Assembly (NCBI GenBank): GCA_003963115.1 | Contig: RXJQ01000036.1 | Span: 21,523-85,522, forward strand | Length of the DNA stretch: 64,000 nt | Origin: Burkholderiales bacterium | Lineage (GTDB): Bacteria > Pseudomonadota > Gammaproteobacteria > Burkholderiales > Burkholderiaceae_C | Direction of reading: 5' to 3' | In this document: positions 7,053-25,454 of the stretch, piece after piece | Numbering within the stretch: position 1 is the first letter of the stretch | How the letters are laid out: the number at the start of each line of letters is the position of its first letter | Notes under the pieces: model-generated | Databases searched by the model: none | What the model was told of the DNA's origin: nothing | What the model saw: the letters and a program-made list of their open reading frames with translations, nothing else | Position numbers and translations under genes: made by a program

Positions 7053-9468
7053 GATGCGCCCCATGATAGATCATTTCGATTTCCTCGGTGAGCTTCAATC
7101 TCAGCGCATGTGTGTAATCCTTGATGCTCATACCTTGGGGCACATCGGTGGTCCTCAAGGGGGTGGTGGTCGTGTCGGTGCTGAGCTGCAGCACGGCATA
7201 GGGCCAGTCCGGCGCTTCCATGGGTGCCAGGGGGATGGCCAGGATGGCCACCTCGGGCACGCTGTCACCTGGCAAAACCGGTTTGCCATCGGGGTGGACA
7301 TAGCCCCATGGTCGTTCCCCGGGCGTTGAGGGCGGCCTGCGGAAACTCACGGCCTGCCCGGCCTTGAACGCGCGCCCTGGCAGCCCCAGGCCATAGTGAT
7401 AGCGGGCCTCGCGCCTGGGGTCTGCTTCAGCGTGCGTGCCAACCAGATAGTGCAGGCATTTGTCGGTGGCATCGAAGGTGAACAGCGCGATGTCGAGCGG
7501 CGACTGGTCGTCACCATTGCCCAGCACCGTGCGGGCGTTGAACTCGGTGGCCTCCATCCTCTGGGCGAGCATTTGGGCCAGCTTGGGTTGCAGTGGCTTT
7601 GTACGCAAGGTGTTGAGCCACTTGCGCAGCTCCAGCGCGCGCTCGATGCCCCGCTCGCGCACCACGTTGCCATCGCCGTAGATGTTCTCTTCCAGATCCC
7701 AGTTGATCTGGTAGAGCGCGCCTGGCCTTGGGTAGAGGATCCGCATCTGTGCGGTGTTGCGCAAGCCCAGCCAGACCAGCGAGGACGGCGGGATCCAGCT
7801 CCAGTTCACGTCCTCGCCTGTGCGATGACCGATGCGTGGCGAGAGACGGCGGGGCCGCTTCATGCCGATTGGAAAGCTCGCTTCCACGATGAGCTCGCGC
7901 ACGGCCAGGCCATCGGGTACCTTGAAGCGGATGTCCTCGGTGCTTTTGGCTTCGTCGGCGTCATCGCCCGTCACGCTGGCATACATGCACTCGGCCTGCC
8001 ACTGGTTGAGCGCGAAGGCGTTGTTGCCGTAGACCTCGGTGAAGAAGTCGATCGGGGCGTCGTGTTCCAGCAGGCCGGCGCCCTCGAAATGCAACTCGAC
8101 TTCAATGCGCTCGGCCGTGCGCACGCTGTTGGGCGTGGGACGCACCGTCACGCGTGGGCCGTGAGATGACAGTCCGCGCACGGTGTAGGCCTCCATCAAG
8201 CCACATTGCCCATACGCCACCAGCGTGCTGGGCAGCTTCTTGACGCAAGACCTGGGCGTGGAGACCTGGACGTACTCGCGGAAAAAACGCGCATCGCCGT
8301 AAGGGTTGATGTCCACCGAGCAGATCAGGCGTTCGCAGTGGATGTCGGATGTCTGCAGGCTGGCCTCATAGCGCCAGCGGTCCTGGTTTTCCGGGGGCGT
8401 GAGGTCGAAGCGCTTGTCCACCTTGAAGGCGCCACCGGTGGGTGGCCCCTGGTACATCTCGACCGTGGCGTTGCCGTCCGGCGCGATCTCGATCACGTTG
8501 AAGCCATGCCAGAACGCACCCGCATTGCGGGCCTGCGTGGGCGTGCCTGCTGACAGCACGGCGATGTCGGCGGTGGGGTCGGTCGCGGCATTGATCACGA
8601 CACGCGCGAAGTGCTGATGGTGCTTGTGCCCATGCAGCAGCAGGCGGACGCGGTGCCCCGCCAGCTCGGCCAGCACCGACCCTGCATTGCCCATCACCAT
8701 CATCTGTTCCTTGTCATGGTCATAAGGCAAGGGCAGCACGTGGTGATGGACCACGGCGATCAGCATGGTGTTGTCGTGGCCCGGGCCTGCTGGCGAACGC
8801 AGCCTTTGCAGGTCTTCCTTCAAGACGGCCAGCCCGTCGGCCGTGACTTCGCCTCGGGCCCAGGAGGTGTCGTAGGTGGCCGAATCCAGCGGCACGATGC
8901 CCACGCGCCCGCCTGCGCTGACCTGGCCCTTGGTCAACCACAGCTCGCCGCCCATGGCCTTGGCCAAATCACGTGTCACCAGGAGCCGCAAGACCACTGT
9001 CAACACGGCAAGCCCACTCCAGCCCCAGGTCGTGGCGCACAAGAGCCAGGCCAGCCAGACGGGATACGCACACGACAAGCCCCTCAGCCAGGCGCTGCCC
9101 GCAGCCAGCAGGGCACACGCGAGCGCGATGCGCCACAGCCAGATGACCGGCACGAGGCCTGTGATCTTGGTGTCGTGGTTGCCGGGTATGGCCCACACTT
9201 CGCACTGGCCATTGGGCGCCACCTTGGCCAGATCCTGCTTCAGCTCGGTCAAGGCCGTGCGCGCCCGCTTGAGCATCCAGAACCAGGGCGTGTTGACCAG
9301 GTCGCCCGTGACGACGACGAGATCGGGCTTGAGCGTCAGGACGGTGCTGCGCAGCTGCCGCCAGTTGCTCTTCTGGAAGTTGAAGCCGAAGTGCAGGTCG
9401 GACAGGTGCACCACCCGCATGGTGCTACCCGCCTGGTCACAGGCTGTCTGCGGTGGCTCATCAGGCAT
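7045..9468 (-). CDS. Membrane-inserted calcineurin-like metallophosphoesterase with GAF-like C-terminus
   Basis: The product is 807 residues from the ATG at 9468, chosen for the GGGGAG upstream; the ATG at 9420, directly before the domain, is the alternative. The phosphoesterase fold shows its metal ligands in order: DLHFG, GDLVN, GNHD, VVHHH and HGHKHH. Between GNHD and the later histidines sits a hydrophobic insertion of about 60 residues (WLWRIALACALLAAG to LAVLTVVLRLLV) that looks like two transmembrane helices. Residues 370-640 are beta-rich and unrecognised. Residues 650-800 resemble a GAF sensor (LFTFDATDKCLHYLVG, GLGLPGRAFKAGQAVSF, PYAVLQLST). A ligand-controlled membrane phosphodiesterase or nuclease is an inference. 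The coupled small gene follows. Confidence 0.78.
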   Translation of the reverse strand: MPDEPPQTACDQAGSTMRVVHLSDLHFGFNFQKSNWRQLRSTVLTLKPDLVVVTGDLVNTPWFWMLKRARTALTELKQDLAKVAPNGQCEVWAIPGNHDTKITGLVPVIWLWRIALACALLAAGSAWLRGLSCAYPVWLAWLLCATTWGWSGLAVLTVVLRLLVTRDLAKAMGGELWLTKGQVSAGGRVGIVPLDSATYDTSWARGEVTADGLAVLKEDLQRLRSPAGPGHDNTMLIAVVHHHVLPLPYDHDKEQMMVMGNAGSVLAELAGHRVRLLLHGHKHHQHFARVVINAATDPTADIAVLSAGTPTQARNAGAFWHGFNVIEIAPDGNATVEMYQGPPTGGAFKVDKRFDLTPPENQDRWRYEASLQTSDIHCERLICSVDINPYGDARFFREYVQVSTPRSCVKKLPSTLVAYGQCGLMEAYTVRGLSSHGPRVTVRPTPNSVRTAERIEVELHFEGAGLLEHDAPIDFFTEVYGNNAFALNQWQAECMYASVTGDDADEAKSTEDIRFKVPDGLAVRELIVEASFPIGMKRPRRLSPRIGHRTGEDVNWSWIPPSSLVWLGLRNTAQMRILYPRPGALYQINWDLEENIYGDGNVVRERGIERALELRKWLNTLRTKPLQPKLAQMLAQRMEATEFNARTVLGNGDDQSPLDIALFTFDATDKCLHYLVGTHAEADPRREARYHYGLGLPGRAFKAGQAVSFRRPPSTPGERPWGYVHPDGKPVLPGDSVPEVAILAIPLAPMEAPDWPYAVLQLSTDTTTTPLRTTDVPQGMSIKDYTHALRLKLTEEIEMIYHGAHHV

Positions 9469-9537
9469 GAGCGGGCTCCCCATCTCTGTACATGGCGAGC
9501 GGTTTACCTGAGGGCAGGCACCGCGTCAATGGGCCAG

Positions 9538-10854
9538 CTAGCTGTCGAAGGCCTGCTCCGGCTTGGTGGACGACAGGCACAGGGCCGCCAGGCTGATGGC
9601 CGCCGCCAGCGACAGGTAGTAGCCCACATAGGCCAGGCCATGCCGCGTAGCCAGGGTGGTGGCGAGATAAGGCGCCAGCGAGGCCCCGAGGATGCCGGCG
9701 AAGTTGAAGGTAATGGACGAGCCGGTGTAGCGCACGGCGGTGGGGAACATCTCCGACAGCAAGGTGCCAAGCGGCCCGTAGGTCATGCCCATCAGGCCCA
9801 GGCCGATCGACAGGAACAGGGTTACGCGGGGAAGGTTGCCGGCCTCGAACATGGGCGCCACCAGAAAGCCAAAGGCCACGATGGTGGCCGACACCAGGAT
9901 CAGCGTGAGGCGGCGGCCGAAGCGGTCCGCCAGCCATGCCGATACCGGGATGCACAGGGCGAAGAACAGCACGGCAAACAACTGGCCGTGCAGGAAATCG
10001 TGGCGCGAATAGTGCAAGGCGCTTGTGCCCCAGCTCAGCGCGAACACGGTCATCAGGTAGAACAGCACGAAGGTGCAGGTGGCCGCCAGCGTGCCCAGAA
10101 TCAGTGCCGATGTGTGCTGGCTCAGCACCGTGAGCATGGGCACCTTGACGCGCTTGTCGCTGTCCAGCGCTTTCTGGAAGACAGGGGTTTCGGTGATGCG
10201 CAAGCGCACGAACAGACCCACGAACACCAGCACGGCGCTGGCCAGGAAGGGAATCCGCCAACCCCACTGGAAGAACTCGGCTTCGCTCAGGGCATCGCCC
10301 AGCCACAGGAAGATGCTGCCCGACAGCAAGAAGCCGATGGGTGCCCCCAGTTGCGGAAACATGCCCCACCAGGCCCGCTTGCCCGGTGGCGCGTTCTCGG
10401 TGGCCAGCAGCACCGCCCCGCCCCATTCGCCGCCCAGGCCAAAGCCCTGGCCGAATCGGCACAGCGCCAGCAGCAAGGCGGCAGCGGTACCCCAGGTTTC
10501 ATAGGTGGGCAGCAGGCCGATGGCCACGGTCGAGATACCCATGGTGAGCAACGCGCCCACCAGTGTGGCCTTGCGGCCGATGCGGTCGCCAAAGTGGCCG
10601 AACACGGCCGAGCCAACGGGCCGCGCGAAGAAGGCCAGGGCAAAGGTGATCAGGGATTGGAGCGTGGCTGCGGTTGGGTCCGACGAAGGAAAGAAGGCCT
10701 TGGGGAAGACGAGGACGGCCGCCGTGGCGTAGATGTAGAAATCGAAGAACTCGACGGTGGTGCCGATCAGGCTGGCAAACAAAACGGTGGCGGGCGAGTT
10801 GGCGGGGGCGTGTGCAATGCGGCTTGGGTCGCCTTGGTCAGTTTGGGCGGTCAT
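9538..10854 (-). CDS. MHS-family MFS metabolite:proton symporter
   Basis: This 438-residue inner-membrane transporter starts at MTAQTDQ; the codons upstream to 10950 are not protein-like. It has twelve predicted helices. The MHS signatures are clear: TTVEFFDFYIYATAA at the first helix, FFARPVGSAVFGHFGDRIGRK between helices 2 and 3, and FGLGGEWGGAVLLATENAP. The family imports organic acids such as shikimate, alpha-ketoglutarate, citrate or proline with protons. The substrate cannot be inferred. It ends about 70 bp from the start of the metallophosphoesterase and shares its orientation, but the gap makes an operon uncertain. Confidence 0.9.
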   Translation of the reverse strand: MTAQTDQGDPSRIAHAPANSPATVLFASLIGTTVEFFDFYIYATAAVLVFPKAFFPSSDPTAATLQSLITFALAFFARPVGSAVFGHFGDRIGRKATLVGALLTMGISTVAIGLLPTYETWGTAAALLLALCRFGQGFGLGGEWGGAVLLATENAPPGKRAWWGMFPQLGAPIGFLLSGSIFLWLGDALSEAEFFQWGWRIPFLASAVLVFVGLFVRLRITETPVFQKALDSDKRVKVPMLTVLSQHTSALILGTLAATCTFVLFYLMTVFALSWGTSALHYSRHDFLHGQLFAVLFFALCIPVSAWLADRFGRRLTLILVSATIVAFGFLVAPMFEAGNLPRVTLFLSIGLGLMGMTYGPLGTLLSEMFPTAVRYTGSSITFNFAGILGASLAPYLATTLATRHGLAYVGYYLSLAAAISLAALCLSSTKPEQAFDS

Positions 10855-11026
10855 CGGCGTGTGTCCTCGTGATCTGCGGCGTGCAGGGTCGACATCATAG
10901 GCCGCAGCACCATGCGCCGGGCAAAACCGCCATAAGCAGGGCCGAGCCATGCCAATCCCGTGGATTGGTGGCGGGGCCTTCGGGCGATCATGTGCCCATC
11001 TGCCCTGGCCCGCCTACAGGTGACAC

Positions 11027-11635
11027 ATGACCACGACCAACACCAGCCTCTCCAGTGTCTTGTCTGCCTATGGCAGCTATGGCGGCGCCTTCTCGGGCAC
11101 CGGCACGACCGTGGCCAGCACCTCGCAGAATCAGGCCAGCAAGGCCTCGTCGAGCTCGGCCAGCAACAGCACGCCGCTGAGCTACCAGTCTCCCGCCAAG
11201 GCGGCCGTGGCCCGTCAGCAGCTCAACACGCTGCAATCGGCGCTGGGCAAGGACATCCGGGCGGCCCTGACCAAGGCCGGCCAGCACCTGAGCGGCACGG
11301 TGGACGTGAGCCTGGGCAGCGACGGCAAGCTGGTGTTCTCTGGTAGCGATGAAGACAAGGCCAAGCTCAAGGCTGCCTTGAGCGCAGACAAGTCCACGCC
11401 TTCCCTCACAGCCCGGCTGGTCTCGCTGGCCAAACAGGCCGAGTCCTTCGACCGTCAAAGCGTGCAATCCGCCGCCTTGACCACGGCCGCGCGCATGGCG
11501 GGCAAGACCTCGCAGAACCTGGTGGAGCTGTACCGCTCGTTGATGACCACCCAGTCGTCCAGCACGGCGGTGTTTTCGCTGTCGGACAAGAGCAGCCAGG
11601 TGGCCTTCAAGGGCGCGGTGTCTGCGTCGGCCTGA
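11027..11635 (+). CDS. Hypothetical Ser/Ala/Thr-rich protein
   Basis: This 202-residue protein starts at ATG after AGGTG. The first 60 residues are low-complexity Ser/Thr/Ala/Gly, without a classical signal peptide. The rest is mixed helix and strand (ARQQLNTLQSALGKDIRAALTKAGQHLSGTVDVSLGSDGKLVFSG and following, in pieces), with an Asp-Glu-Asp turn. The pattern vaguely recalls secreted or flagellum-associated proteins that lack cleaved signals, but I do not recognise a family. It is divergent from the transporter and monocistronic. Confidence 0.6.
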   Translation: MTTTNTSLSSVLSAYGSYGGAFSGTGTTVASTSQNQASKASSSSASNSTPLSYQSPAKAAVARQQLNTLQSALGKDIRAALTKAGQHLSGTVDVSLGSDGKLVFSGSDEDKAKLKAALSADKSTPSLTARLVSLAKQAESFDRQSVQSAALTTAARMAGKTSQNLVELYRSLMTTQSSSTAVFSLSDKSSQVAFKGAVSASA

Positions 11636-11688
11636 GTGAGTCGACCAGATCTCCGGGCGGGCTTTGTCTGCAGGGTGATGTGGCTGCT

Positions 11689-12456
11689 TCAGTTCGCTCG
11701 CGCGGCTCGGCGCCTGGTGGCCGCAGCAACGCCAGCCAAGCCCAGGCCCATCAAGGCATAGGTATTTGGCTCGGGAATAACGGGCGGCGTGCCGATGACC
11801 GAAGTGATCGTCCCGAAGTCGGTCACGCCCGACAAGGCCGCTTTGCCCAGGCTCAGCAAACCCAGGGATTGCGAGAACTTGTTAAAGCCGCTGGTCGTGA
11901 TGGACAGGCCGCTCAGGGTTGTGGAAAACGTACCCGGCCCGGAGATGGCTGTCGAACCCGTGACACTGCCAATGTCCCAAAGATAGAAATTGGTCAAGGT
12001 GCCCACGCCGTTGCCGCCGATCAGGGTCGCGTAGACGCGCTTGTTGGCCAAGTCGACATTGAGGTCCGTCACGGTCAAGGAACCGCCACTCGATACGCTC
12101 TTGAGCACAGGTGCAACCTGGGTCGCACCACCGGTGGTGGCCGCACCCAGCACCTGATTCGTGCTGGTATCAATCGTGAGCGAGGTAAGCGGTGCACTCA
12201 CCGATACCTGGCTGTATAAGCCGTCGGAATCCTTGAGGATGTTGCCGACGGCCGCACCGAAGGGCGACACGGAGACCTTGCCGACATCCAGCGCGCTCGT
12301 CAGGTCCGCACTGAAGGTCAGTGTGCCGCTCCCAACAAAGATAAGCCCGTTATAAACACCCGTGCCCGCAGGCACCACCACGGACGCCGCCTGCGCCCCC
12401 AAGGCCAGGGTCATCAAAGACGCCATGGCGGTCAAACGCACAGCAACTCGCATCAT
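11689..12456 (-). CDS. PEP-CTERM sorting-domain protein
   Basis: The 255-residue exported protein has an N-terminal signal peptide (MMRVAVRLTAMASLMTLALGAQA) and a C-terminal PEP-CTERM tail: PEPNTYALMGLGLAGVAAA followed by the basic cluster TRRRAAR. That tail is recognised by exosortase (EpsH) systems and anchors or releases proteins with exopolysaccharide. The body is a beta-rich Gly/Ser/Thr/Val domain. It shares its layout with the neighbouring secreted protein at 12704-13378, suggesting duplication. No exosortase gene is in the window. Confidence 0.9.
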   Translation of the reverse strand: MMRVAVRLTAMASLMTLALGAQAASVVVPAGTGVYNGLIFVGSGTLTFSADLTSALDVGKVSVSPFGAAVGNILKDSDGLYSQVSVSAPLTSLTIDTSTNQVLGAATTGGATQVAPVLKSVSSGGSLTVTDLNVDLANKRVYATLIGGNGVGTLTNFYLWDIGSVTGSTAISGPGTFSTTLSGLSITTSGFNKFSQSLGLLSLGKAALSGVTDFGTITSVIGTPPVIPEPNTYALMGLGLAGVAAATRRRAARAN

Positions 12457-17584: not shown

Positions 17585-18316
17585 ATGCCCCCACTACACC
17601 CGCTACAAGCTCCTGCCCTGATCCTGGCCGCCGGCCGCGGCGAACGCATGCGGCCCCTGACCGACACCACGCCCAAGCCTTTGCTGGCTGTGCAGGGCAA
17701 GCCGCTGATCGAGTGGCATCTGGAGGCGCTGGCCCGTGATGGCGTGCGCGAGGTCGTGATCAACACGGCCCATCTGGAAGACCAGTTCCCCGCCGCGCTG
17801 GGTGATGGCAGCCGCTGGGGCTTGCGCATCCGCTACTCGATGGAAGGGCGTGACCATGGCGGCGCACTGGAAACGGCCGGCGGCATCGCCAAGGCCTTGC
17901 CCATGCTGGGCGACACCTTCTGGGTGCTGGCCGGCGACGTGTTTGTGCTGGGCTTTCGGTTCGACGCGAGCGAGGCCGAGGCCTTCGCGCAAGACAGCGA
18001 CTGGGGCCGCATATGGCTGGTGCCCAACCCTGCTCATGTGCCGCAAGGTGACTTCGCCTTGAGCGATGCGGGACGTGTACTGCGCAAGGACGCGGCCCCC
18101 AGCGGCACACCGACCTACACCTACTCGACCATCGGCCTGTACCGGCCGGCCATGGTGGCGGGCATTGCGGCAGGCGAGAAAGCCGCGCTGCGCCCTAGTC
18201 TGGAGCGCGCCATTGATGCGGGCAGGCTTTCCGGGCGCCTCTACACGGGCCCCTGGGTGGACGTGGGCACGCCGCAGCGCCTGGCGGAGCTGAACGCCTT
18301 GGACGCCGTAGGTTGA
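17585..18316 (+). CDS. murU: N-acetylmuramate 1-phosphate uridylyltransferase-like nucleotidyltransferase
   Basis: This 243-residue sugar-nucleotidyltransferase has the signature LILAAGRGERMRPLTDTTPKPL near the N-terminus, with Lys in TPKPLL and the catalytic Asp in LAGDVFVL. It ends with WVDVGTPQRLAEL, typical of MurU/HddC-like enzymes. MurU makes UDP-MurNAc from MurNAc-1-phosphate in the peptidoglycan-recycling bypass with the kinase AmgK. AmgK, usually adjacent, is not in this window, so the substrate assignment rests on overall resemblance to MurU. Its stop is within ten bases of the speD start, suggesting co-transcription. Confidence 0.78.
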   Translation: MPPLHPLQAPALILAAGRGERMRPLTDTTPKPLLAVQGKPLIEWHLEALARDGVREVVINTAHLEDQFPAALGDGSRWGLRIRYSMEGRDHGGALETAGGIAKALPMLGDTFWVLAGDVFVLGFRFDASEAEAFAQDSDWGRIWLVPNPAHVPQGDFALSDAGRVLRKDAAPSGTPTYTYSTIGLYRPAMVAGIAAGEKAALRPSLERAIDAGRLSGRLYTGPWVDVGTPQRLAELNALDAVG

Positions 18317-18324
18317 CACACGTG

Positions 18325-18750
18325 ATGACCGCTGCACCCTCCCCTGGCACACCGCACCCCGCCGGCACGCACCTGACGGCCGACCTGTCGGGTTGCGCGC
18401 CAGACCACCCCTGGATGAGCCAGCCCGAGGCCTTGCGCGACGCCTGCGTGCAGGCCGTGGCGGACGTGGGCCTGCACGCCGTGGGGCAGTGCTTTCACCG
18501 TTTCTCGCCCGCGCCGGGACAAGGCCAGGCGGGCATCACCGGCGTCGTGCTGCTGGCCGAATCCCACCTGGCGGTGCACACCTGGCCGGAGCTGGGCGTG
18601 GTCACGCTCGACGTGTATGTATGCAACCTGCTGAGCGACAACGCCGAGCGGGCACAGCGTCTGATGGACCAGCTGGTGGCAGGCTTCGAGCCACGGCAGC
18701 AGGCGCGTCAGGCCATGCGGCGCGCCATACCGGACGCGGCCAGCACCTGA
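18325..18750 (+). CDS. speD: S-adenosylmethionine decarboxylase proenzyme
   Basis: The 141-residue product belongs to the small prokaryotic AdoMet decarboxylase class (SpeD/SpeH). The self-cleavage site Ser80 lies in LLAESHLAVHTWPE, with His85 and Cys100 (TLDVYVC) at the expected catalytic positions. Processing would give a pyruvoyl-containing enzyme that makes decarboxylated AdoMet, the aminopropyl donor for spermidine. ATG at 18325 is chosen; GTG at 18322 and TTG at 18313 are in frame. Its 3' end overlaps the convergent FAD-protein gene by 43 bp. It plausibly supplies the membrane aminopropyltransferase encoded at 20408-21991. Confidence 0.9.
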   Translation: MTAAPSPGTPHPAGTHLTADLSGCAPDHPWMSQPEALRDACVQAVADVGLHAVGQCFHRFSPAPGQGQAGITGVVLLAESHLAVHTWPELGVVTLDVYVCNLLSDNAERAQRLMDQLVAGFEPRQQARQAMRRAIPDAAST

Positions 18751-20411
18751 GTGGCAGCCCTCACGCCGTGCGTAAAGGCTTCTTCAAACACCGAGTAGGC
18801 CGACAGGTCGCTGTGGGCAAAGTGCACGCGCCCATGAGGCTGGGCCAAGGCAGCCAGCGCGTCGTGGCCCCTCACACCCGGCGCGGGGATGCTCATGGCG
18901 TGGCCATACCGCATCAGGTGCGCCTGACCGACCAGGCCGGGCAGGTCCGGGTGGATGCGTACCAGATCGCTGGCCACACGCTGGGCCCAGTCCTGCCAGC
19001 TGTCTTGCAGCAGGGCCTTGCGCCAGGCCTGCTCCTGCGCCCGGCTTTGGCCGCCCAGCGCCCAGTAATGGGTCAACAGCATGGGCCCGGTCACCGGTGA
19101 GAGGCTTTGATGCCGGGCATCGACATAGCCCAGCGAGGGCGCCTCGACACCCGGCACGCCCATATGCGTATACGCCACGTTGTCCCATGAGAGCGGTGCA
19201 CCGGGCCGGTCAAAGAAAGGCTTGTCCAGCAGCAGGTTGCTGACGAGCCAGGGCGCGTACTGCATGCGTGGCGCCATCTCCTGCACTGGCGGCACGGGTG
19301 TCTTGAGCAAGCGGTTCGCCACGAATAGAGGCACAGCCAGGATGAGCTGCCTGGCCACCCAGGTCTGTGCGCACTGGCGCTTGACCTGCCAGCTGCGCAC
19401 GCTCACCTCGTGGCGCCGCGCGTCGATGTCCAGCGCCACGTGCCCGGCCTGCCACCGCGAACCCAGGTCTTGCGCAAGATGACGCGTGAGCCAGCCGTTG
19501 CCCTCGGGCCAGGTGAGCACGGCATCGTGGCCTTCGCCCTGACCGGGTGCGTCGAAGCCGTGGCGGCTGGCGAAGTAGTGCAGGCCAGCCCAGGCTGACA
19601 CACGCTGCATGCCGGCGCCATAGTCATCGCGGCACACGTAATCCAGCAGCCACAGCAAGGGCTTGGAGGTGTAGTTCTTGTCTTGCAGCCATTGGGCGAA
19701 GCTTTGCTGGTCCAGCGCGGCCAGGCCTGCGTGCCAGGGGCGCTTCGTGGTCGGCACGGCGAAGCCCAGCTCCCGGGTCGCGCTGGCCACGTCTTGTGCA
19801 AAACGGCGGTACTGGGCCTGGTCTTCGGTGCTGAGGCCCTGCTGCGGCAGCAAGCCATCGAACCACTGGCCGCGCCACAGGCCGGGCTTGTCCTGCTTCG
19901 CGTCCGGCACGAAGAGGCGCTCATGCGGACTGTAACAGAGGTGGCGCTCGTCACCCACCCAACGACCATGCTCATGGCGGATCAGGCCGATCTCCTCCAG
20001 CCATTGCGCGACCTCCGTGGCATCTGGCCCCGGCATGGGCAGGTAGTGCGCACCCAGCGGACAGGGCAGCGCCCCCATCATGTGGCCGCGCGCGTTGCCG
20101 CCGGGCTGGTCTTCCAGGTCCAGCACCACCAGATCATCAAGTCCTGCCTGCATCAAGGTACGGGCCGCCGACAGTCCGGCCACGCCCGCGCCGATGATCA
20201 GGGTATGCACGCGGATGGGTTCGCCGCAGGTGGCTTGCGGTGTCTTCGCATCACGCCAGGCATGAGCACGGTCCACATGGGCTCCGACCCAGCCGCCTTG
20301 CAGGTCGGCACGCAGCAAGCTGGCTTCGTGATGCCAACAAGCGCTCAGGCCCGGCAGCAGGCAGGATGCGGTCGTGGCGGCAGACACACTCAACCATTGC
20401 CGGCGCTTCAT
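18708..20411 (-). CDS. FAD-dependent amine-oxidase-like lipoprotein
   Basis: The 567-residue product starts at MKRRQWLSV, whose ATG overlaps the stop of the upstream aminopropyltransferase gene (ATGA). The N-terminus combines a twin Arg with a lipobox LSAC (Cys25), predicting a lipoprotein, perhaps Tat-exported. A Rossmann FAD site follows (LIIGAGVAGLSAARTLMQAG, then the acidic end VLDLEDQPGGNARG), as in flavin amine oxidases and phytoene-desaturase-like proteins. The C-terminal FAD motif resembles HFAHSDLSAYSVFEEAFTHG. In this operon it may oxidise a polyamine or a polyamine-modified lipid at the envelope. The substrate is inference. Confidence 0.82.
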   Translation of the reverse strand: MKRRQWLSVSAATTASCLLPGLSACWHHEASLLRADLQGGWVGAHVDRAHAWRDAKTPQATCGEPIRVHTLIIGAGVAGLSAARTLMQAGLDDLVVLDLEDQPGGNARGHMMGALPCPLGAHYLPMPGPDATEVAQWLEEIGLIRHEHGRWVGDERHLCYSPHERLFVPDAKQDKPGLWRGQWFDGLLPQQGLSTEDQAQYRRFAQDVASATRELGFAVPTTKRPWHAGLAALDQQSFAQWLQDKNYTSKPLLWLLDYVCRDDYGAGMQRVSAWAGLHYFASRHGFDAPGQGEGHDAVLTWPEGNGWLTRHLAQDLGSRWQAGHVALDIDARRHEVSVRSWQVKRQCAQTWVARQLILAVPLFVANRLLKTPVPPVQEMAPRMQYAPWLVSNLLLDKPFFDRPGAPLSWDNVAYTHMGVPGVEAPSLGYVDARHQSLSPVTGPMLLTHYWALGGQSRAQEQAWRKALLQDSWQDWAQRVASDLVRIHPDLPGLVGQAHLMRYGHAMSIPAPGVRGHDALAALAQPHGRVHFAHSDLSAYSVFEEAFTHGVRAATQVLAASGMARRMA

Positions 20412-21991
20412 TGATGGATCCGCCCCCACTCGGCCTCGAAGGTCTGCACCAGCACCTGGTTGCTCAGGCGATTGGGCTCGGCATCCACGCGGGCCATGTC
20501 CGGCGGGAAATCGAACAAGGCGGGCAGGCTGGACGCCGTCACGAATTGCAGACCCCTTGGCAAGTTGGTGGGCATGCGCCAGGGCCGATGGTGCGCCAGC
20601 ACGAAGCCCCATTCGCCGAAGCTGGGCACGTGGGCATGGTAGGGCGTGGTCTGGAGGTCGACGGCCTCCAGCGTGCTGACCACGGTCCAGAAGCTCTTGC
20701 GGGCGATCAGCGGCGAGGTGGTCTGGATGACGGCATAGCCGCTGGCCGACAGATGCTGATCCAGCAGGGCATAGAAGGTGGTGGTATAGAGCTTGCCGAT
20801 GGCGTGGTTGGTGGGGTCTGGGAAGTCCACCACGATGACGTCATAGACCTCGTCGTGCGAGGCCAGCCAGGTGAAGGCATCGGCGTTGACCACCTTGACC
20901 TTGCTGTTGAGCAGCGAGCCCTTGTTGAGTTCGGTCAAGCGCGCATCGTGGCTGAACAAGCGGGTCATGGCCGGGTCCAGCTCGACCAGCGTGACCTGCT
21001 GCACGCTGGGGTACTTGAGGATCTCGCGCACGGCCATGCCATCGCCGCCGCCGAGCACCAGCACACGCTTGGGCGCACCCTGTGCGCTCATGGCCGGGTG
21101 GACCAGGGCCTCGTGGTAACGGTATTCATCACGCGAGGCGAATTGCAGGTTGCCGTTGAGAAACAGGCGCGTGCCGCCAAGGCCCTGCGTGATCACGATG
21201 TGCTGGTAAGGCGTGTCTTGCCGCAGCACGACGCCTTCGCCATAGAAGCTGTCTTCAGCCCAGGTGGTCAGCGGTGGTGCACCCACCATGGCTGCAGCCA
21301 GCACCACCAGGATCAGGCCGCAGGCCCAGGCATGCCCATGCCAGGCCCGCAGCTCGCTGCGAAACAGGTGCAGCACCCACACGGCCACCAGCACATTGAG
21401 CAGACCGAAGAACACGCCTGTGCGCACGATGCCCAGGTGCGGCACCAGCAGCAGCGGGAAGGCCACCGACACCACCAGGGCACCGAGGTAGTCGAAGGTC
21501 AGCACTTCCGAGACCAGGTCCTTGAGCGCGTAGCGGTGGGCAAATTGGCGCTTGAGGATGCGCATCACCAGCGGGATCTCCAGCCCCACCAGCACGCCTA
21601 TCAGCATCACCATGGCGTACAGCAAGGCCCGAAACGGCGTCGAGGCCCATGCCGGCAGCAGGCTGTTGGCCACGAACAAGGCGGCAGGCATCAGGCCGCC
21701 GAAGAGCCCCACCATCAGCTCGATGCGCAGGAAGTGCGCCACCAGCTGGCGCTCCAGATAGCGCGACAACCACGAGCCCACGCCCATGGCGAACAGGTAG
21801 GTGCCGATGACCGTGGAGAACTGCAGGATCGAGTCGCCCAGCAGGTAGCTGGCCAGGGCGCCGGCCGCCAGCTCATAGACCAGCCCGCAAGCCGCCACGA
21901 CGAAGACCGAGCCCAGCAGCGCCAGTTCGGCTGGCGCCATCCGACCGGCGGTATGGTCAGCGCTATGGCCGCGCTCCTGCTGTTCAGCCAT
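20408..21991 (-). CDS. Membrane-embedded aminopropyltransferase (spermidine synthase-like)
   Basis: The 527-residue protein has about seven transmembrane helices in residues 20-245, followed by a cytoplasmic spermidine-synthase domain. The methyltransferase-fold signature is VLVLGGGDGMAVREIL, with VTLVELDPAMTRLF and the catalytic-loop region VIVVDFPDPTNHAIGKLYTTTFY. The fold transfers aminopropyl groups from decarboxylated AdoMet to amines. The membrane part suggests a membrane-bound or lipid-linked acceptor, or polyamine transport. It overlaps DUF350 upstream and the FAD lipoprotein downstream. speD on the opposite strand probably supplies its donor. Confidence 0.88.
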   Translation of the reverse strand: MAEQQERGHSADHTAGRMAPAELALLGSVFVVAACGLVYELAAGALASYLLGDSILQFSTVIGTYLFAMGVGSWLSRYLERQLVAHFLRIELMVGLFGGLMPAALFVANSLLPAWASTPFRALLYAMVMLIGVLVGLEIPLVMRILKRQFAHRYALKDLVSEVLTFDYLGALVVSVAFPLLLVPHLGIVRTGVFFGLLNVLVAVWVLHLFRSELRAWHGHAWACGLILVVLAAAMVGAPPLTTWAEDSFYGEGVVLRQDTPYQHIVITQGLGGTRLFLNGNLQFASRDEYRYHEALVHPAMSAQGAPKRVLVLGGGDGMAVREILKYPSVQQVTLVELDPAMTRLFSHDARLTELNKGSLLNSKVKVVNADAFTWLASHDEVYDVIVVDFPDPTNHAIGKLYTTTFYALLDQHLSASGYAVIQTTSPLIARKSFWTVVSTLEAVDLQTTPYHAHVPSFGEWGFVLAHHRPWRMPTNLPRGLQFVTASSLPALFDFPPDMARVDAEPNRLSNQVLVQTFEAEWGRIHQ

Positions 21992-22208
21992 GCACCGCCG
22001 CCGCCACGATCATGCCGATGGAAAGGCACATGGCCGCCACCACGATGGCCAAGGCCATGTTCTTCTTCTCGACAATCTCGCCCCACAGGTCATAGGGCGT
22101 GATCTTGTCCACAATGATGAAGCAGATCCAGAACACGAGTACGCCGATCAGCGCAAAGGCGATCGACCCCAGGAACACGCCAGGCTTGAGCCATTCGATG
22201 TCGAACAT
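21984..22208 (-). CDS. DUF350 family membrane protein
   Basis: This 74-residue protein has two hydrophobic helices (GVFLGSIAFALIGVLVFWICFIIV, in pieces, and MALAIVVAAMCLSIGMIVAAAV) separated by DKITPYDLWGEIVEKKN, the characteristic DUF350/YjfL pattern. DUF350 proteins are inner-membrane proteins of unknown activity, often encoded beside polyamine or envelope-stress genes. It starts 9 bp after the DUF4178 gene and overlaps the aminopropyltransferase start, so it is part of the same operon. It is short, consistent with one DUF350 repeat. Confidence 0.88.
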   Translation of the reverse strand: MFDIEWLKPGVFLGSIAFALIGVLVFWICFIIVDKITPYDLWGEIVEKKNMALAIVVAAMCLSIGMIVAAAVHG

Positions 22209-22217
22209 GATGATCTC

Positions 22218-23813
22218 CTACTTGTGAAAGCCGCCGCTGTTGTAGCCGCCGTATGAACCGCCATGACTGCTGCCACCGCCTTGATTGGCACTGCATTGTT
22301 GGTACTCGCTGCTGTATTGGCCATAGTTCTCGCGCACGTCGCTGCAATCGTCGTCGCATCGGTTCATCAGCCAGACGATCGCCAGAAAAAACACAATCCA
22401 CATCAGCTGTGTCATCCATTTCTTAGGCTCCACGGAGATGGGCATGGCATCGCGCTTGAACGCCCCCACCTGCTGGGGCGCAATGCCGAACGCCTGCATG
22501 ACCGCACGCGCCTCCAATGTCTCACCAAAAGACCAGGTGATCTCACTGCCGGTCTGCTCGCGGTTGAGCAGCAGGCGGCTGTCGGAGCCCATGCCGGCGT
22601 AGTCCGAGTTGAGCGAGCGCTGGTTCTTTCGCACGGGCCAGTAGAACTCGCCCAGTACATAGGTGGTCATGGCCGTGTAGGTGTAGCGCTGGCGAAAGGT
22701 CTTGCCTTGGTAGACGAGCTTGTCGCCCTTCACGGCCGGCACGCCGGTCACCGGGCGCACGATGCTCCAGCCGTCTTGCGCATCGACCAGGAAGGCAAAG
22801 CCCTGCATGCGGTTGTAGAGCAGGTACTCGCGCCAGAAGGCCTGCTCCTCGCGTGGCCCATCGGGGGCTTCGCAGCGCTCCTGGTAGCCCACTACCTGCC
22901 AGCTGTCCGGCCTGCCATCGACCTTGAGCCTGCCGACCTTGCCCAGCGGGATCAAGGGCTCCAGCATATTGTCTTGGCGGTAGTAGGCCAGGTCGCCGCC
23001 CAGGCCCTTGCTGATGTCGATCACCGAATGGCAACTGGTGCAGACGATGGACTGGGCACTGTCGAGGCTGGGTGTGAGCGAGGTGCCGCAGTTCGGGCAT
23101 TCAATGCCCTTGGCCTTGAGCTGGCCCTCGGAGGCCTGTTTGGCATCAGGGATGCCGCTCAGGCGCAGGTCGGCCAGTTGGACCGATCGCCCCACATCCA
23201 GGCGCGGCGGCTGGGCATCGGGCTCGACCGACAGCACCTCGCCGGCCGTGTTGCGCAACTCCAGCACGGCAAAGGCCTTGCTCAGATCGGGCTTGAGCGC
23301 CAGCTCGCCTTCGGCCGCATGCACGCGGGCCTGCACACGCGAGGACAGCACCCAGGGCTGGCTGTCGATGATCACGCTTTGGCCGATCAGGCTGCTGGCC
23401 AGCTCCACCATGGGCAGCAGGCGCGAGGGCCGCCAATCAAAGGACATGACATAGGCGCCGTTGTCCTCGCTCAGGGTGCCGCTGCGGCCTGAATCGAACA
23501 GGGCATGCCATTCGGTCCAGCGCCCTTCTTCCCCCTCTGCATCGCGGTAAGCGAATTGCAGCCGACCGATCAGCGTGAAAGCGAGCCCCTGGTGCTGGCC
23601 GCGTGCGCCCAGCGCCAAGGGGCTGTGGTCATCGAACAGCTCGGCGCTCTGGCCGATTCGGCGCAGCGCATCGCCATCGCGCACCAGCGTGCTCTTGCAA
23701 AACGAGCACACGGCCATGGGCGATGCCGCCGATCGGAACTCGACCGGCGCGCCGCAGAAGGTACACGTGGATCGCCAGGCGCGTTGCGCGCCCGGTCCGC
23801 CTGTTTCGCTCAT
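22218..23813 (-). CDS. DUF4178 protein with two zinc ribbons and a C-terminal membrane anchor
   Basis: This 531-residue protein has an N-terminal zinc ribbon (CTFCGAPVEF with VCSFC), a beta-rich DUF4178 domain, a second ribbon near residue 240 (CPNCGTSL with VCTSC), a second DUF4178-like beta domain (about 280-430), a single transmembrane helix near 475-495 (LMWIVFFLAIVWLM) and a short tail rich in Cys/Asp and then Gly/Ser/His. DUF4178 has no proven activity. The gene sits between the SPFH gene (25 bp gap) and DUF350 (9 bp gap). It may be a scaffold that links the membrane enzyme to the SPFH platform. Confidence 0.85.
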   Translation of the reverse strand: MSETGGPGAQRAWRSTCTFCGAPVEFRSAASPMAVCSFCKSTLVRDGDALRRIGQSAELFDDHSPLALGARGQHQGLAFTLIGRLQFAYRDAEGEEGRWTEWHALFDSGRSGTLSEDNGAYVMSFDWRPSRLLPMVELASSLIGQSVIIDSQPWVLSSRVQARVHAAEGELALKPDLSKAFAVLELRNTAGEVLSVEPDAQPPRLDVGRSVQLADLRLSGIPDAKQASEGQLKAKGIECPNCGTSLTPSLDSAQSIVCTSCHSVIDISKGLGGDLAYYRQDNMLEPLIPLGKVGRLKVDGRPDSWQVVGYQERCEAPDGPREEQAFWREYLLYNRMQGFAFLVDAQDGWSIVRPVTGVPAVKGDKLVYQGKTFRQRYTYTAMTTYVLGEFYWPVRKNQRSLNSDYAGMGSDSRLLLNREQTGSEITWSFGETLEARAVMQAFGIAPQQVGAFKRDAMPISVEPKKWMTQLMWIVFFLAIVWLMNRCDDDCSDVRENYGQYSSEYQQCSANQGGGSSHGGSYGGYNSGGFHK

Positions 23814-23838
23814 ATCGGATCTGGCCTCAGACCCGGGT

Positions 23839-24879
23839 TCAGACCAGCTTCTTGAGCAGCTCGGCCTTCTTGGCGCTGAACTCGTCCTCGGTCAGGATGC
23901 CCTTGGCCTTGAGCTCTGCCAGCTTCTCGATGGTGGCCATGACCTCGTCGGGCTTGATGCCTGCGCCGCCCGCAGCCGTCGCACCCGTGGCCGCCTGCGC
24001 ACCCTGCAAGCCTTGCTGGATGGACTGCGCCATGACCTGGCCCAAGGCGAGGCCGGCCCCCAGCCCGGCTGCATCGCCCGCCACGCCGCTGCCCTGGCCC
24101 GATGCCGCTGCGATCGTCGGCAAGGCCTGCGCGGCCTGGTACTGCACGAACTGGCCCATGTTCTGGCCGACCATGCCCATGCCGATCTTCTGGTCGAGGA
24201 TTTTTTGCAGCTCTTCGGGCAGGGACACATTCTGGACGGTCAAGCCTTCGAGCTTGATGCCCAGTGCCTCGAAAGCCGGCGACACAGCTGTGGACAGGGC
24301 CTTGGCAAACTCGATTTGGTTGGCCGCCAGGTCCAGGAAGGGGATGCCGCTCTGGGCCACGGCATCGCTCAGGTGCTGCAAGAGCAGACCACGCAGCTGG
24401 CCATCGAGATCGGCCACGGTGTAGCTCTCGCGCGTGCCCGACACCTCGGTGTGGAACTTGCGCGGATCGGCCATGCGCACCGCGTAGTTGCCAAAGGCAC
24501 GCAGCCGCACGGCGCCGAAGTCCTTGTCGCGCAGGGTGATAGGCTGGCTGGTGCCCCAGCGCAAATCGAGCTGCTGGCGCGTGCTGAAGAAGTAGACGTC
24601 GCTCTTGAAGGGCGAGGCGAACAGCTTGTCCCAGTTCTTGAGGTTGGTCAGCAGCGGCAGGGTCTGCGTGGTGAGCTTGTGCGTGCCGGGGCCGAAAAGG
24701 TCGGCCACCTTGCCCTCGTTCACGAACAGGGCCATCTGCGACTCGCGCACCACCAGGGTCGCGCCCGTCTGGATTTCGCGGTCCTCAAAGGGGTAGCGCC
24801 AGGCCAGCACGCCGTCGGTGGATTCGGTCCACTCGATGACGTCGATGAACTGTTTCTTGATGAAATCGACCAATCCCAT
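23839..24879 (-). CDS. SPFH (virion-core-protein-like) protein with SHOCT tail
   Basis: The 346-residue protein starts at MGLVDFIKKQFIDVIEW and carries an SPFH/band-7 domain of the YdjI or 'virion core protein' type (residues 30-210, including GPGTHKLTTQTLPLL and VQNVSLPEELQKIL). An Ala/Gly/Gln-rich linker follows, and a C-terminal SHOCT module (IEKLAELKAKGILTEDEFSAKKAELLKKL). It has no transmembrane helix, so it may assemble on the membrane. It is the first gene of the five-gene operon, and its promoter must lie in the 95 bp before the divergent gene at 24975. It is probably the assembly platform of the system. Confidence 0.88.
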   Translation of the reverse strand: MGLVDFIKKQFIDVIEWTESTDGVLAWRYPFEDREIQTGATLVVRESQMALFVNEGKVADLFGPGTHKLTTQTLPLLTNLKNWDKLFASPFKSDVYFFSTRQQLDLRWGTSQPITLRDKDFGAVRLRAFGNYAVRMADPRKFHTEVSGTRESYTVADLDGQLRGLLLQHLSDAVAQSGIPFLDLAANQIEFAKALSTAVSPAFEALGIKLEGLTVQNVSLPEELQKILDQKIGMGMVGQNMGQFVQYQAAQALPTIAAASGQGSGVAGDAAGLGAGLALGQVMAQSIQQGLQGAQAATGATAAGGAGIKPDEVMATIEKLAELKAKGILTEDEFSAKKAELLKKLV

Positions 24880-24974: not shown

Positions 24975-25454
24975 ATGCCCCGCTGTCTCAAGTCGGTCAC
25001 GGCCGCCCTGGCCCTGATCGCCCCTGCCCTGGCATTTTCACAAAGCGCCGTGCTTGGCGCATCGGCCAGCGCCTCCTCCAGCACCACCTCCACCCCCGAC
25101 TCGAAAGCCACCCTGTCGAACTCGACCGGGCCTGCCGGCCGCGCCATCCCCATTCCGGTCCAGACGCTGCGTGGCGAAATCACCTTTGGCCTGCCGCCCG
25201 AGGTCAAGCTCAATGGCAGCGCGGCCCGCCTCGCCCCCGGCGCGCGCATCCGCAACGAGCACAACCTGCTGACGCTCTCGGGCAACCTCATCGGCCAGAC
25301 CTACAAGGTCAACTACACGATCGACACCTATGGCCTGCTGATGAACGTCTGGCTGCTGACGGCCGACGAAGCCAATCAGCTGTGGCCCACCACGGCCAAG
25401 GAAGCTGCCACGTGGACCTATGACCCCGTCAGCCACATCTGGGTCAAGCCCTGA
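24975..25454 (+). CDS. Hypothetical secreted protein upstream of miaB
   Basis: The 159-residue precursor has a signal peptide (MPRCLKSVTAALALIAPALAFSQ). A Ser/Thr/Ala-rich linker precedes a compact C-terminal domain of about 90 residues (RGEITFGLPPEVKLNGSAARLAPGARI and following, in pieces, then QTYKVNYTIDTYGLLMNVWLLT). Equivalent proteins are found upstream of miaB in many Burkholderiales as hypotheticals. It is 45 bp upstream of miaB and co-directional, so probably co-transcribed. The function is unknown. Confidence 0.8.
   Translation: MPRCLKSVTAALALIAPALAFSQSAVLGASASASSSTTSTPDSKATLSNSTGPAGRAIPIPVQTLRGEITFGLPPEVKLNGSAARLAPGARIRNEHNLLTLSGNLIGQTYKVNYTIDTYGLLMNVWLLTADEANQLWPTTAKEAATWTYDPVSHIWVKP

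Follow-up and report, generated by a model that had tools for sequence, protein, structure and literature searches.

A candidate C-terminal lysine acceptor for the membrane aminopropyltransferase of a polyamine-linked operon in a Burkholderiales bacterium

A family of bacterial operons that combine DUF350, DUF4178, and a spermidine-synthase domain fused to an N-terminal seven-transmembrane (7TM) region has been described by Ravi et al. (2024; PMC11237479). Passages of that paper include a variant in which band-7, two-transmembrane (2TM), and SHOCT components replace CesT/Tir-PspA, and to which an S-adenosylmethionine (AdoMet) decarboxylase and a polyamine oxidase are added. In the wording of these passages, the band-7 variant may carry either a transmembrane (TM) synthase or an ATP-grasp ligase, and the suggested functions are the monitoring of polyamine or the aminopropylation of other substrates. 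Actinobacterial operons of a DUF4247/DUF2617 type belong to that paper as well. In passages of a separate paper, a membrane spermidine synthase is again linked to DUF2170 and PspA (PMC10948618). Here we analyse an operon of this kind within a 64,000-nucleotide stretch of DNA (the window) from a Burkholderiales bacterium whose proteins place it close to Aquabacterium by similarity (GCA_003963115.1, contig RXJQ01000036.1, forward-strand positions 21,523 to 85,522), in which five minus-strand genes for an SPFH/SHOCT protein, a DUF4178 protein, a DUF350 protein, a membrane aminopropyltransferase, and a flavin adenine dinucleotide (FAD) oxidase converge on speD.

Related enzymes have reportedly been studied in two further settings. 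Pederick et al., in 2023, are said to have described the peptide-spermidine ligases YjfC and YgiC, which occur with YjfM and YgiB and attach a polyamine to a peptide. Li et al., in 2019, reportedly examined a fusion of a major facilitator superfamily (MFS) protein with spermidine synthase that accompanies an AdoMet decarboxylase, noted DUF350, and proposed an acceptor other than putrescine without naming one.

For the window we favour, with somewhat better than even credence, a specific acceptor. The 7TM aminopropyltransferase, fed by speD, would aminopropylate the lysine that closes a membrane-anchored tail, and the reaction would probably take place at the outer surface of the inner membrane. 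The comparative sequence data point to this protein target over the lipid target or the polyamine export that a preliminary description of the locus had proposed. The features that carry this argument are the following (positions within the window; aa, amino acids).

22218..23813, minus strand: DUF4178 protein, 531 aa, with two zinc ribbons, two DUF4178 stretches, one predicted TM helix, and a Gly-rich tail (Pfam PF13785, 6.9e-26)
22362..22421, minus strand: predicted TM helix, residues 465-484, ahead of the tail (AlphaFold2 model and sequence)
22221..22280, minus strand: Gly/Ser/His tail, residues 512-531, ending GGYNSGGFHK, the candidate acceptor (alignment of 33 proteins)
20408..21991, minus strand: membrane aminopropyltransferase, 527 aa, with seven predicted TM helices and a spermidine-synthase domain (NF002956, 680.7 bits, cut-off 472, residues 14-524)
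21242..21934, minus strand: seven-helix segment, residues 20-250, N-terminus inside by the positive-inside rule (AlphaFold2 model, loop charges)
20591..21235, minus strand: catalytic domain, residues 253-467, predicted extracytoplasmic (AlphaFold2 model, loop charges)
20813..20827, minus strand: DFPDP, residues 389-393, the DxPDP family signature (alignments A1 and A2)
18325..18750, plus strand: speD, AdoMet decarboxylase, convergent (TIGR03330, 82.9 bits, cut-off 75.65)

The last codon of the DUF4178 gene (22221-22223, minus strand) encodes lysine, and this residue is invariant, together with G518, G522, G523, G527, G528, and H530, in all 33 aligned DUF4178 proteins, that of the window included. 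Residues 517-531 have an AlphaFold2 confidence (predicted local distance difference test, pLDDT) below 50 and are thus predicted to be disordered. Judged by eye, Lys and Arg residues precede the TM helix and Asp follows it, so the tail is predicted to lie outside. In other words, a predicted membrane-anchored, disordered tail with a C-terminal lysine is encoded beside a TM synthase. The cysteines of both zinc ribbons (17/20/36/39 and 239/242/258/261) are also invariant in this alignment. For the DUF4178 fold, the top-ranked PDB matches from Foldseek were unusable (TM-scores of 0.08-0.18 in the first five rows).

Structurally, the AlphaFold2 model of the aminopropyltransferase (pLDDT 86.7) forms seven long helices followed by a spermidine-synthase domain, and its closest PDB match is 1uir, a polyamine aminopropyltransferase from Thermus. 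Residues Q263, H293, D317, D339, D371, D389, and D392, which we take to bind the donor and carry out catalysis in spermidine synthases, are invariant in 20 of 20 alignment rows, and D389, P391, D392, and P393 of the signature are invariant in all 20 rows of A1 and all 40 rows of A2. Where the solved Bacillus enzyme has DSTEP and PTYPSG, the window enzyme has DFPDP and PSFGEWG, at positions that presumably form the acceptor side. Aminopropylation of lysine is the simplest reading because the donor site is kept, the acceptor side is changed, and a C-terminal lysine on a loose tail is encoded in the adjacent region. Loops 2-3, 4-5, and 6-7 together hold more Lys and Arg than the other three loops in 20/20 and 40/40 rows of two alignments, both of which include the window row, and the stretch after the seventh helix is on average more acidic than basic. 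The synthase is therefore predicted to have its N-terminus inside and its catalytic domain outside the cytoplasm, on the same side as the tail.

A lysine-ended tail is also found where the DUF4178 protein lacks one. In such loci DUF4178 ends in an acidic stretch and is directly followed by a microprotein encoded on its own (46-110 aa, a single hydrophobic segment) that terminates in -HK or -GK, as in Gallionellaceae (...NVSHK, L112), Gemmatimonadetes (...YLHGK, L145), and Solitalea (...SYYHK, in two tandem copies, L141). A Novosphingobium plasmid microprotein of 48 aa ending ...GPSHK corresponds to RefSeq WP_193828724.1, annotated 'hypothetical protein'. Elsewhere the carrier is a lipoprotein-like or small membrane protein; for example, the endings ...RGK and ...GGK are found in L047, L053, L055, L056, and L062-L064 on a protein whose start is lipobox-like. 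Carriers thus vary in size and anchor, from DUF4178 C-termini and the microproteins to proteins of 236-367 aa whose starts look lipobox-like by eye and one of 576 aa, and such starts suggest that several carriers are exported. Ten carriers of lysine tails matched no Pfam family above cut-off. Fusions of DUF4178 to the tail occur in Burkholderiales and in L207 (8295-9689, minus strand; ...SGSHK), which belongs to the phylum of Solitalea and whose fusion apparently arose independently. In Solitalea agri (L141, 4131-11205), two tandem units of DUF4178, lysine-tail microprotein, and DUF350 precede one synthase.

These endings were counted across 139 loci, comprising the window and 138 others, all chosen by their aminopropyltransferase gene. 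Removal of L202 and L203, which duplicate L147 and L143, left 137. The presence of an ATP-grasp ligase led us to exclude L193 and L194, and a further 16 lack any DUF4178, DUF350, or tail homologue within reach, leaving 119 assessable loci. The genome sets behind the loci may overlap, and short DUF4178-like proteins in PspA-type loci were labelled by phmmer queries, not by Pfam. Candidate tails were selected by position or homology under a rule blind to the last residue. This rule gave candidates in 100 loci, and 97 of them end in lysine (38/38 DUF4178 tails, 38/41 microproteins, and 21/21 homologues of other carriers). The three exceptions (L136, L144, and L218) each hold a lysine tail that the rule passed over, and inspection of the 19 assessable loci left open by the rule revealed such a tail in 16. 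In total, a lysine-ending tail is present in 116 of 119 assessable loci. None was seen in L060, L077, and L199, the latter two of which lie at locus or contig edges. As a control drawn from the products of the same loci, the best products of seven other families end in lysine in 13 of 460 cases. Two additional plasmid loci outside this count (L251 and L252) carry lysine-ended small proteins just before the synthase.

A different ending accompanies the ATP-grasp enzymes. In Escherichia coli, yjfC (annotated 'peptide--spermidine ligase') adjoins yjfL, which encodes a DUF350 protein, and yjfM, whose product ends ...HWGG; DUF350 is accordingly found with both kinds of enzyme. A PF03738 search listed 42 places, 30 of which had loci, and tail proteins were picked by eye upstream of the ligase. 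A tail was identifiable in 26 of the 30 (none was clear in L226, L232, L237, and L240), and its last residue was Gly in 17, Ser in eight, Glu in one, and Lys in none. The window tail, which ends in HK, is unlike the Gly or Ser endings of 25 of these 26, and the window's genome has no PF03738 match at E 1e-20. Because lysine is found beside TM synthases and Gly or Ser beside ligases, the last residue of the tail appears to go with the modifying enzyme. L193 and L194, from the sample of the Solitalea phylum, combine an ATP-grasp ligase with SpeD and a TM synthase divergent from the ligase; the proteins beside their ligases end in SYGG, and both chemistries are possibly present in one pathway.

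With regard to mechanism, speD would supply decarboxylated AdoMet, whose aminopropyl group would be transferred to the side-chain amine of the last tail lysine. This side chain, a four-carbon butylamine, resembles one half of putrescine on a tether, and its modification would thus yield N-epsilon-(3-aminopropyl)lysine, a protein-bound analogue of spermidine. The extra-cationic tail might then bind anionic envelope polymers or report on the state of the envelope. speD is the only PF02675 match in the window's genome, and its product carries an AESH sequence, which we take to be the processing site. Three other PF01564 proteins are encoded in this genome and all pass the Pfam cut-off; two of them, at 48.3 and 61.8, also exceed the cut-off of the generic model NF037959 (40). 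However, they score 209, 189, and 69 bits versus equivalog cut-offs of 304, 304, and 472, and no other protein in the genome lies above a speE-type equivalog cut-off. Decarboxylated AdoMet from speD therefore probably, not certainly, serves the tail reaction.

The remaining genes of the operon provide the likely setting for this chemistry.

23839..24879, minus strand: SPFH (Band_7_1) protein with a C-terminal SHOCT domain, 346 aa (Pfam PF13421, 1.4e-75; SHOCT PF09851, 5e-9)
21984..22208, minus strand: DUF350 (YjfL-like) protein, 74 aa, probably with two TM helices (by eye) (PF03994, 3.2e-13)
18708..20411, minus strand: FAD amine oxidase, 567 aa, a predicted exported lipoprotein (PF01593, Amino_oxidase, 7.9e-23)

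All five minus-strand genes are overlapping or spaced by no more than 25 base pairs (bp). Specifically, gaps of 25 bp and 9 bp separate the SPFH/SHOCT gene from the DUF4178 gene and the latter from the DUF350 gene, the DUF350 and aminopropyltransferase genes overlap by 8 bp, and the aminopropyltransferase and FAD genes overlap by 4 bp (ATGA). The FAD gene, whose likely start is the ATG at 20411, overlaps convergent speD by 43 bp at its 3' end. Pfam and NCBIfam agree with the name that the preliminary description gave to every gene of the operon, speD included, although the C-terminal lysine did not figure in it. Its picture of a membrane or envelope platform that likely depends on decarboxylated AdoMet made by speD, with the oxidase as a possible later step, also appears to be right. 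A PspA-type system was considered and rejected: neither PspA, which the preliminary description did not find either, nor DUF2170/CesT-Tir is among the Pfam matches of the operon genes. The SPFH protein and DUF350 may form a scaffold or channel that holds the complex together. The FAD oxidase begins MKRRQWLS, which includes a Tat-like (twin-arginine translocation) RR motif, and carries a lipobox-like LSAC. In a crude pattern count of 46 relatives, RR precedes the FAD motif in 42, a lipobox-like site is found in 30, and both occur in order in 16. The window oxidase has its best PDB matches among polyamine, putrescine, and spermine oxidases, which match weakly and in the N-terminal part that binds FAD. 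Such an exported amine oxidase might act later, by trimming, converting, or turning over the tag.

Beyond the operon, in the region 17585-18325, the plus-strand gene murU, encoding N-acetylmuramate-1-phosphate uridylyltransferase, ends 8 bases before the speD ATG, and at this distance speD may be co-transcribed with this peptidoglycan-recycling gene. On the other side, 95 bp from the SPFH gene and divergent from it, lies a 159-aa open reading frame (ORF; 24975-25454) with a signal-peptide-like start and no Pfam family above cut-off.

Several observations weigh against modification of the tail lysine as we propose it. The rule that yields lysine in 97 of 100 candidates was written after the lysine pattern was known, and for 21 of the 100 the selection was by homology to lysine-ending queries, six of these being the queries themselves. 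Common descent links the 119 loci, which are therefore not independent trials, and the carrier microproteins may likewise share ancestry. Lysine endings are frequent in two small control families (DUF2170, 5/8; PspA, 2/8). In 16 of the 137 loci no homologue of DUF4178, DUF350, or a tail lies in reach; one of these, L198, still has a lysine tail. No FAD gene was detected in L047-L066, and the three other PF01564 proteins in the window's genome make other users of decarboxylated AdoMet possible. The lysine could also serve for recognition without being the acceptor. Finally, we know of no decarboxylated AdoMet in the periplasm, and donor delivery on the outside is the weak point of the proposal; the ATP-grasp counterpart, moreover, has to act in the cytoplasm, so the tail may be modified ahead of its export.

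The alternative that survives best, which we nevertheless regard as unlikely, is that free polyamine (spermidine or a variant) is made at the membrane and that the lysine tail is an unmodified cationic sensor or docking end. The catalytic domain is indeed closest to solved enzymes that make free polyamines (1uir and 6bq2). However, an exact C-terminal lysine on different carriers, together with Gly or Ser beside ligases, fits an enzyme that reads a C-terminus better than it fits a charge sensor. A reading of the operon as one for free spermidine only was set back by the TIGR00417 speE score of the synthase, which at 138.2 bits falls below the cut-off of 249.55. The fusion studied by Li et al. 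is also said not to restore spermidine in an E. coli speE mutant.

A rather improbable alternative keeps the chemistry that we propose and moves it to the cytoplasm, before or during export, in which case the topology call would be wrong or the active site would face inward. Decarboxylated AdoMet is made in this compartment, and the sister ligases would act there because they need ATP. Against this stand the loop charges, which favour an N-in, seven-TM, C-out arrangement in every row of both alignments, and the seven helices of the AlphaFold2 model. We consider it decidedly improbable that the tail lysine is instead the substrate of the FAD amine oxidase, which would convert it to allysine for cross-linking while the aminopropyltransferase acts on something else. 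Both the oxidase, with its RR motif and lipobox-like site, and the tail are predicted to be outside the cytoplasm, and the weak PDB matches of the oxidase to amine-oxidizing enzymes agree with this idea. However, lysine tails are present in loci without a detected FAD gene (among L047-L066), whereas the aminopropyltransferase is present in all loci by choice. Least probable of all is the earlier suggestion that an envelope lipid or other small amine is aminopropylated and that the conserved tail is a complex-assembly signal: the synthase is embedded in the membrane, SPFH and PspA partners act at lipid membranes, and lipid genes may be linked to the operon (systematic scoring of neighbours covered operon families only), but the exact C-terminal lysine and the Gly or Ser beside ligases are left unexplained.

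Returning to aminopropylation of the tail lysine, a broader and more tentative form of the proposal, to which we give a little less than even credence, is that this is a new extracytoplasmic modification resembling an 'exo-hypusine'. Decarboxylated AdoMet would be exported, or passed through the 7TM enzyme, to cap the tail lysine, and together with the ligases there would be a general code in which the last residue, Lys or Gly/Ser, names the polyamine chemistry.

The preliminary description made its proposal contingent on these genes occurring together elsewhere, and they do. Among 299 Pseudomonadota genomes (one draw, the window's genome included), the aminopropyltransferase (NF002956, E 1e-80) is found in 31 and DUF4178 (E 0.001) in 20, and all 20 are among the 31 (hypergeometric 1.2e-23, kinship ignored). 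The TM aminopropyltransferase is carried as well by 18 of the 247 genomes drawn from Solitalea's phylum and, in the phylum of a Bryobacterales locus, by 20 of 119 genomes (19 of them over the cut-off). In one genome of the latter sample (G626, locus L199), two different TM synthases are encoded on opposite strands, separated by about 4.5 kb. Neighbourhoods take at least three builds: SPFH, DUF4178, DUF350, synthase, FAD oxidase, and speD, as in the window; PspA, DUF2170, DUF350, a lipoprotein-like protein, and synthase; and a small protein, a long DUF350 protein, synthase, and speD. Between DUF350 and the synthase, L042 carries a gene for a TonB-dependent receptor (9639-11789, minus strand) and L038 a gene with Schlafen/AlbA_2 and HATPase_c_4 matches (9320-11338, minus strand); in L087 and L096, an ORF close to the L042 receptor in size and C-terminus precedes the synthase. 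Spread as a plasmid or phage cassette was considered and rejected: 13 of 72,556 plasmid records matched at E 1e-30, and nine of those 13 exceed 1 Mb, while among 50,697 phage records a single one matched at E 1e-20, with 32.5% identity across 38% of the query.

If aminopropylation of the tail is correct, a widespread enzyme family would gain its missing substrate, a genome without a protein above the canonical speE cut-off would have a reason for keeping speD, and dozens of uncharacterised microproteins would receive a role. Tail aminopropylation would also represent a new kind of polyamine-based protein modification at the bacterial envelope. The substrate question of the membrane spermidine synthase becomes directly testable on one short tail.

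Among previously known systems, those of YjfC/YgiC are similar in having a DUF350 partner and a Ser/Gly-rich C-terminus on the tail protein. They differ in that they use amide ligation by an ATP-grasp enzyme on a tail ending in Gly or Ser, whereas the window system is proposed to use alkyl transfer to a tail ending in Lys. The fusion of Li et al. reportedly contains the same type of enzyme, and here a specific acceptor and a membrane side are proposed in addition. Deoxyhypusine synthase, in modifying eIF5A, provides a precedent for an enzyme of polyamine metabolism that extends, by an amine, the side chain of a lysine within a protein; it differs from the window enzyme in its unrelated fold, its aminobutyl group, its internal target lysine, and its cytoplasmic location.

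Of the systems in PMC11237479, the Bacillus subtilis ydj operon (PspA, TPM, band-7, and zinc ribbons) shares a membrane platform with band-7 and a double zinc ribbon, and differs in that the passages on it name no polyamine enzyme. The band-7/SHOCT variant resembles the operon of the window, which likewise holds band-7 and SHOCT, DUF350, AdoMet decarboxylase, an Amino_oxidase-family gene, and the TM synthase. The preliminary description was correct, according to these passages, that DUF350 and DUF4178 occur near PspA and polyamine genes. Because the variant is already described there, the gene set is less new than had been suggested, and what stands as new is the candidate acceptor. The same passages make no mention of the C-terminal lysine, the tail microprotein, or the side of the catalytic domain. 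The open-access literature that we searched yielded no mention of a lysine tail with a membrane aminopropyltransferase, and its titles and the starts of its abstracts yielded nothing on aminopropylation of lysine or protein as a modification. As far as searched, the operon itself is thus of a known kind, and the lysine-tail rule, its Gly/Ser counterpart beside ligases, and the predicted outward-facing enzyme are new.

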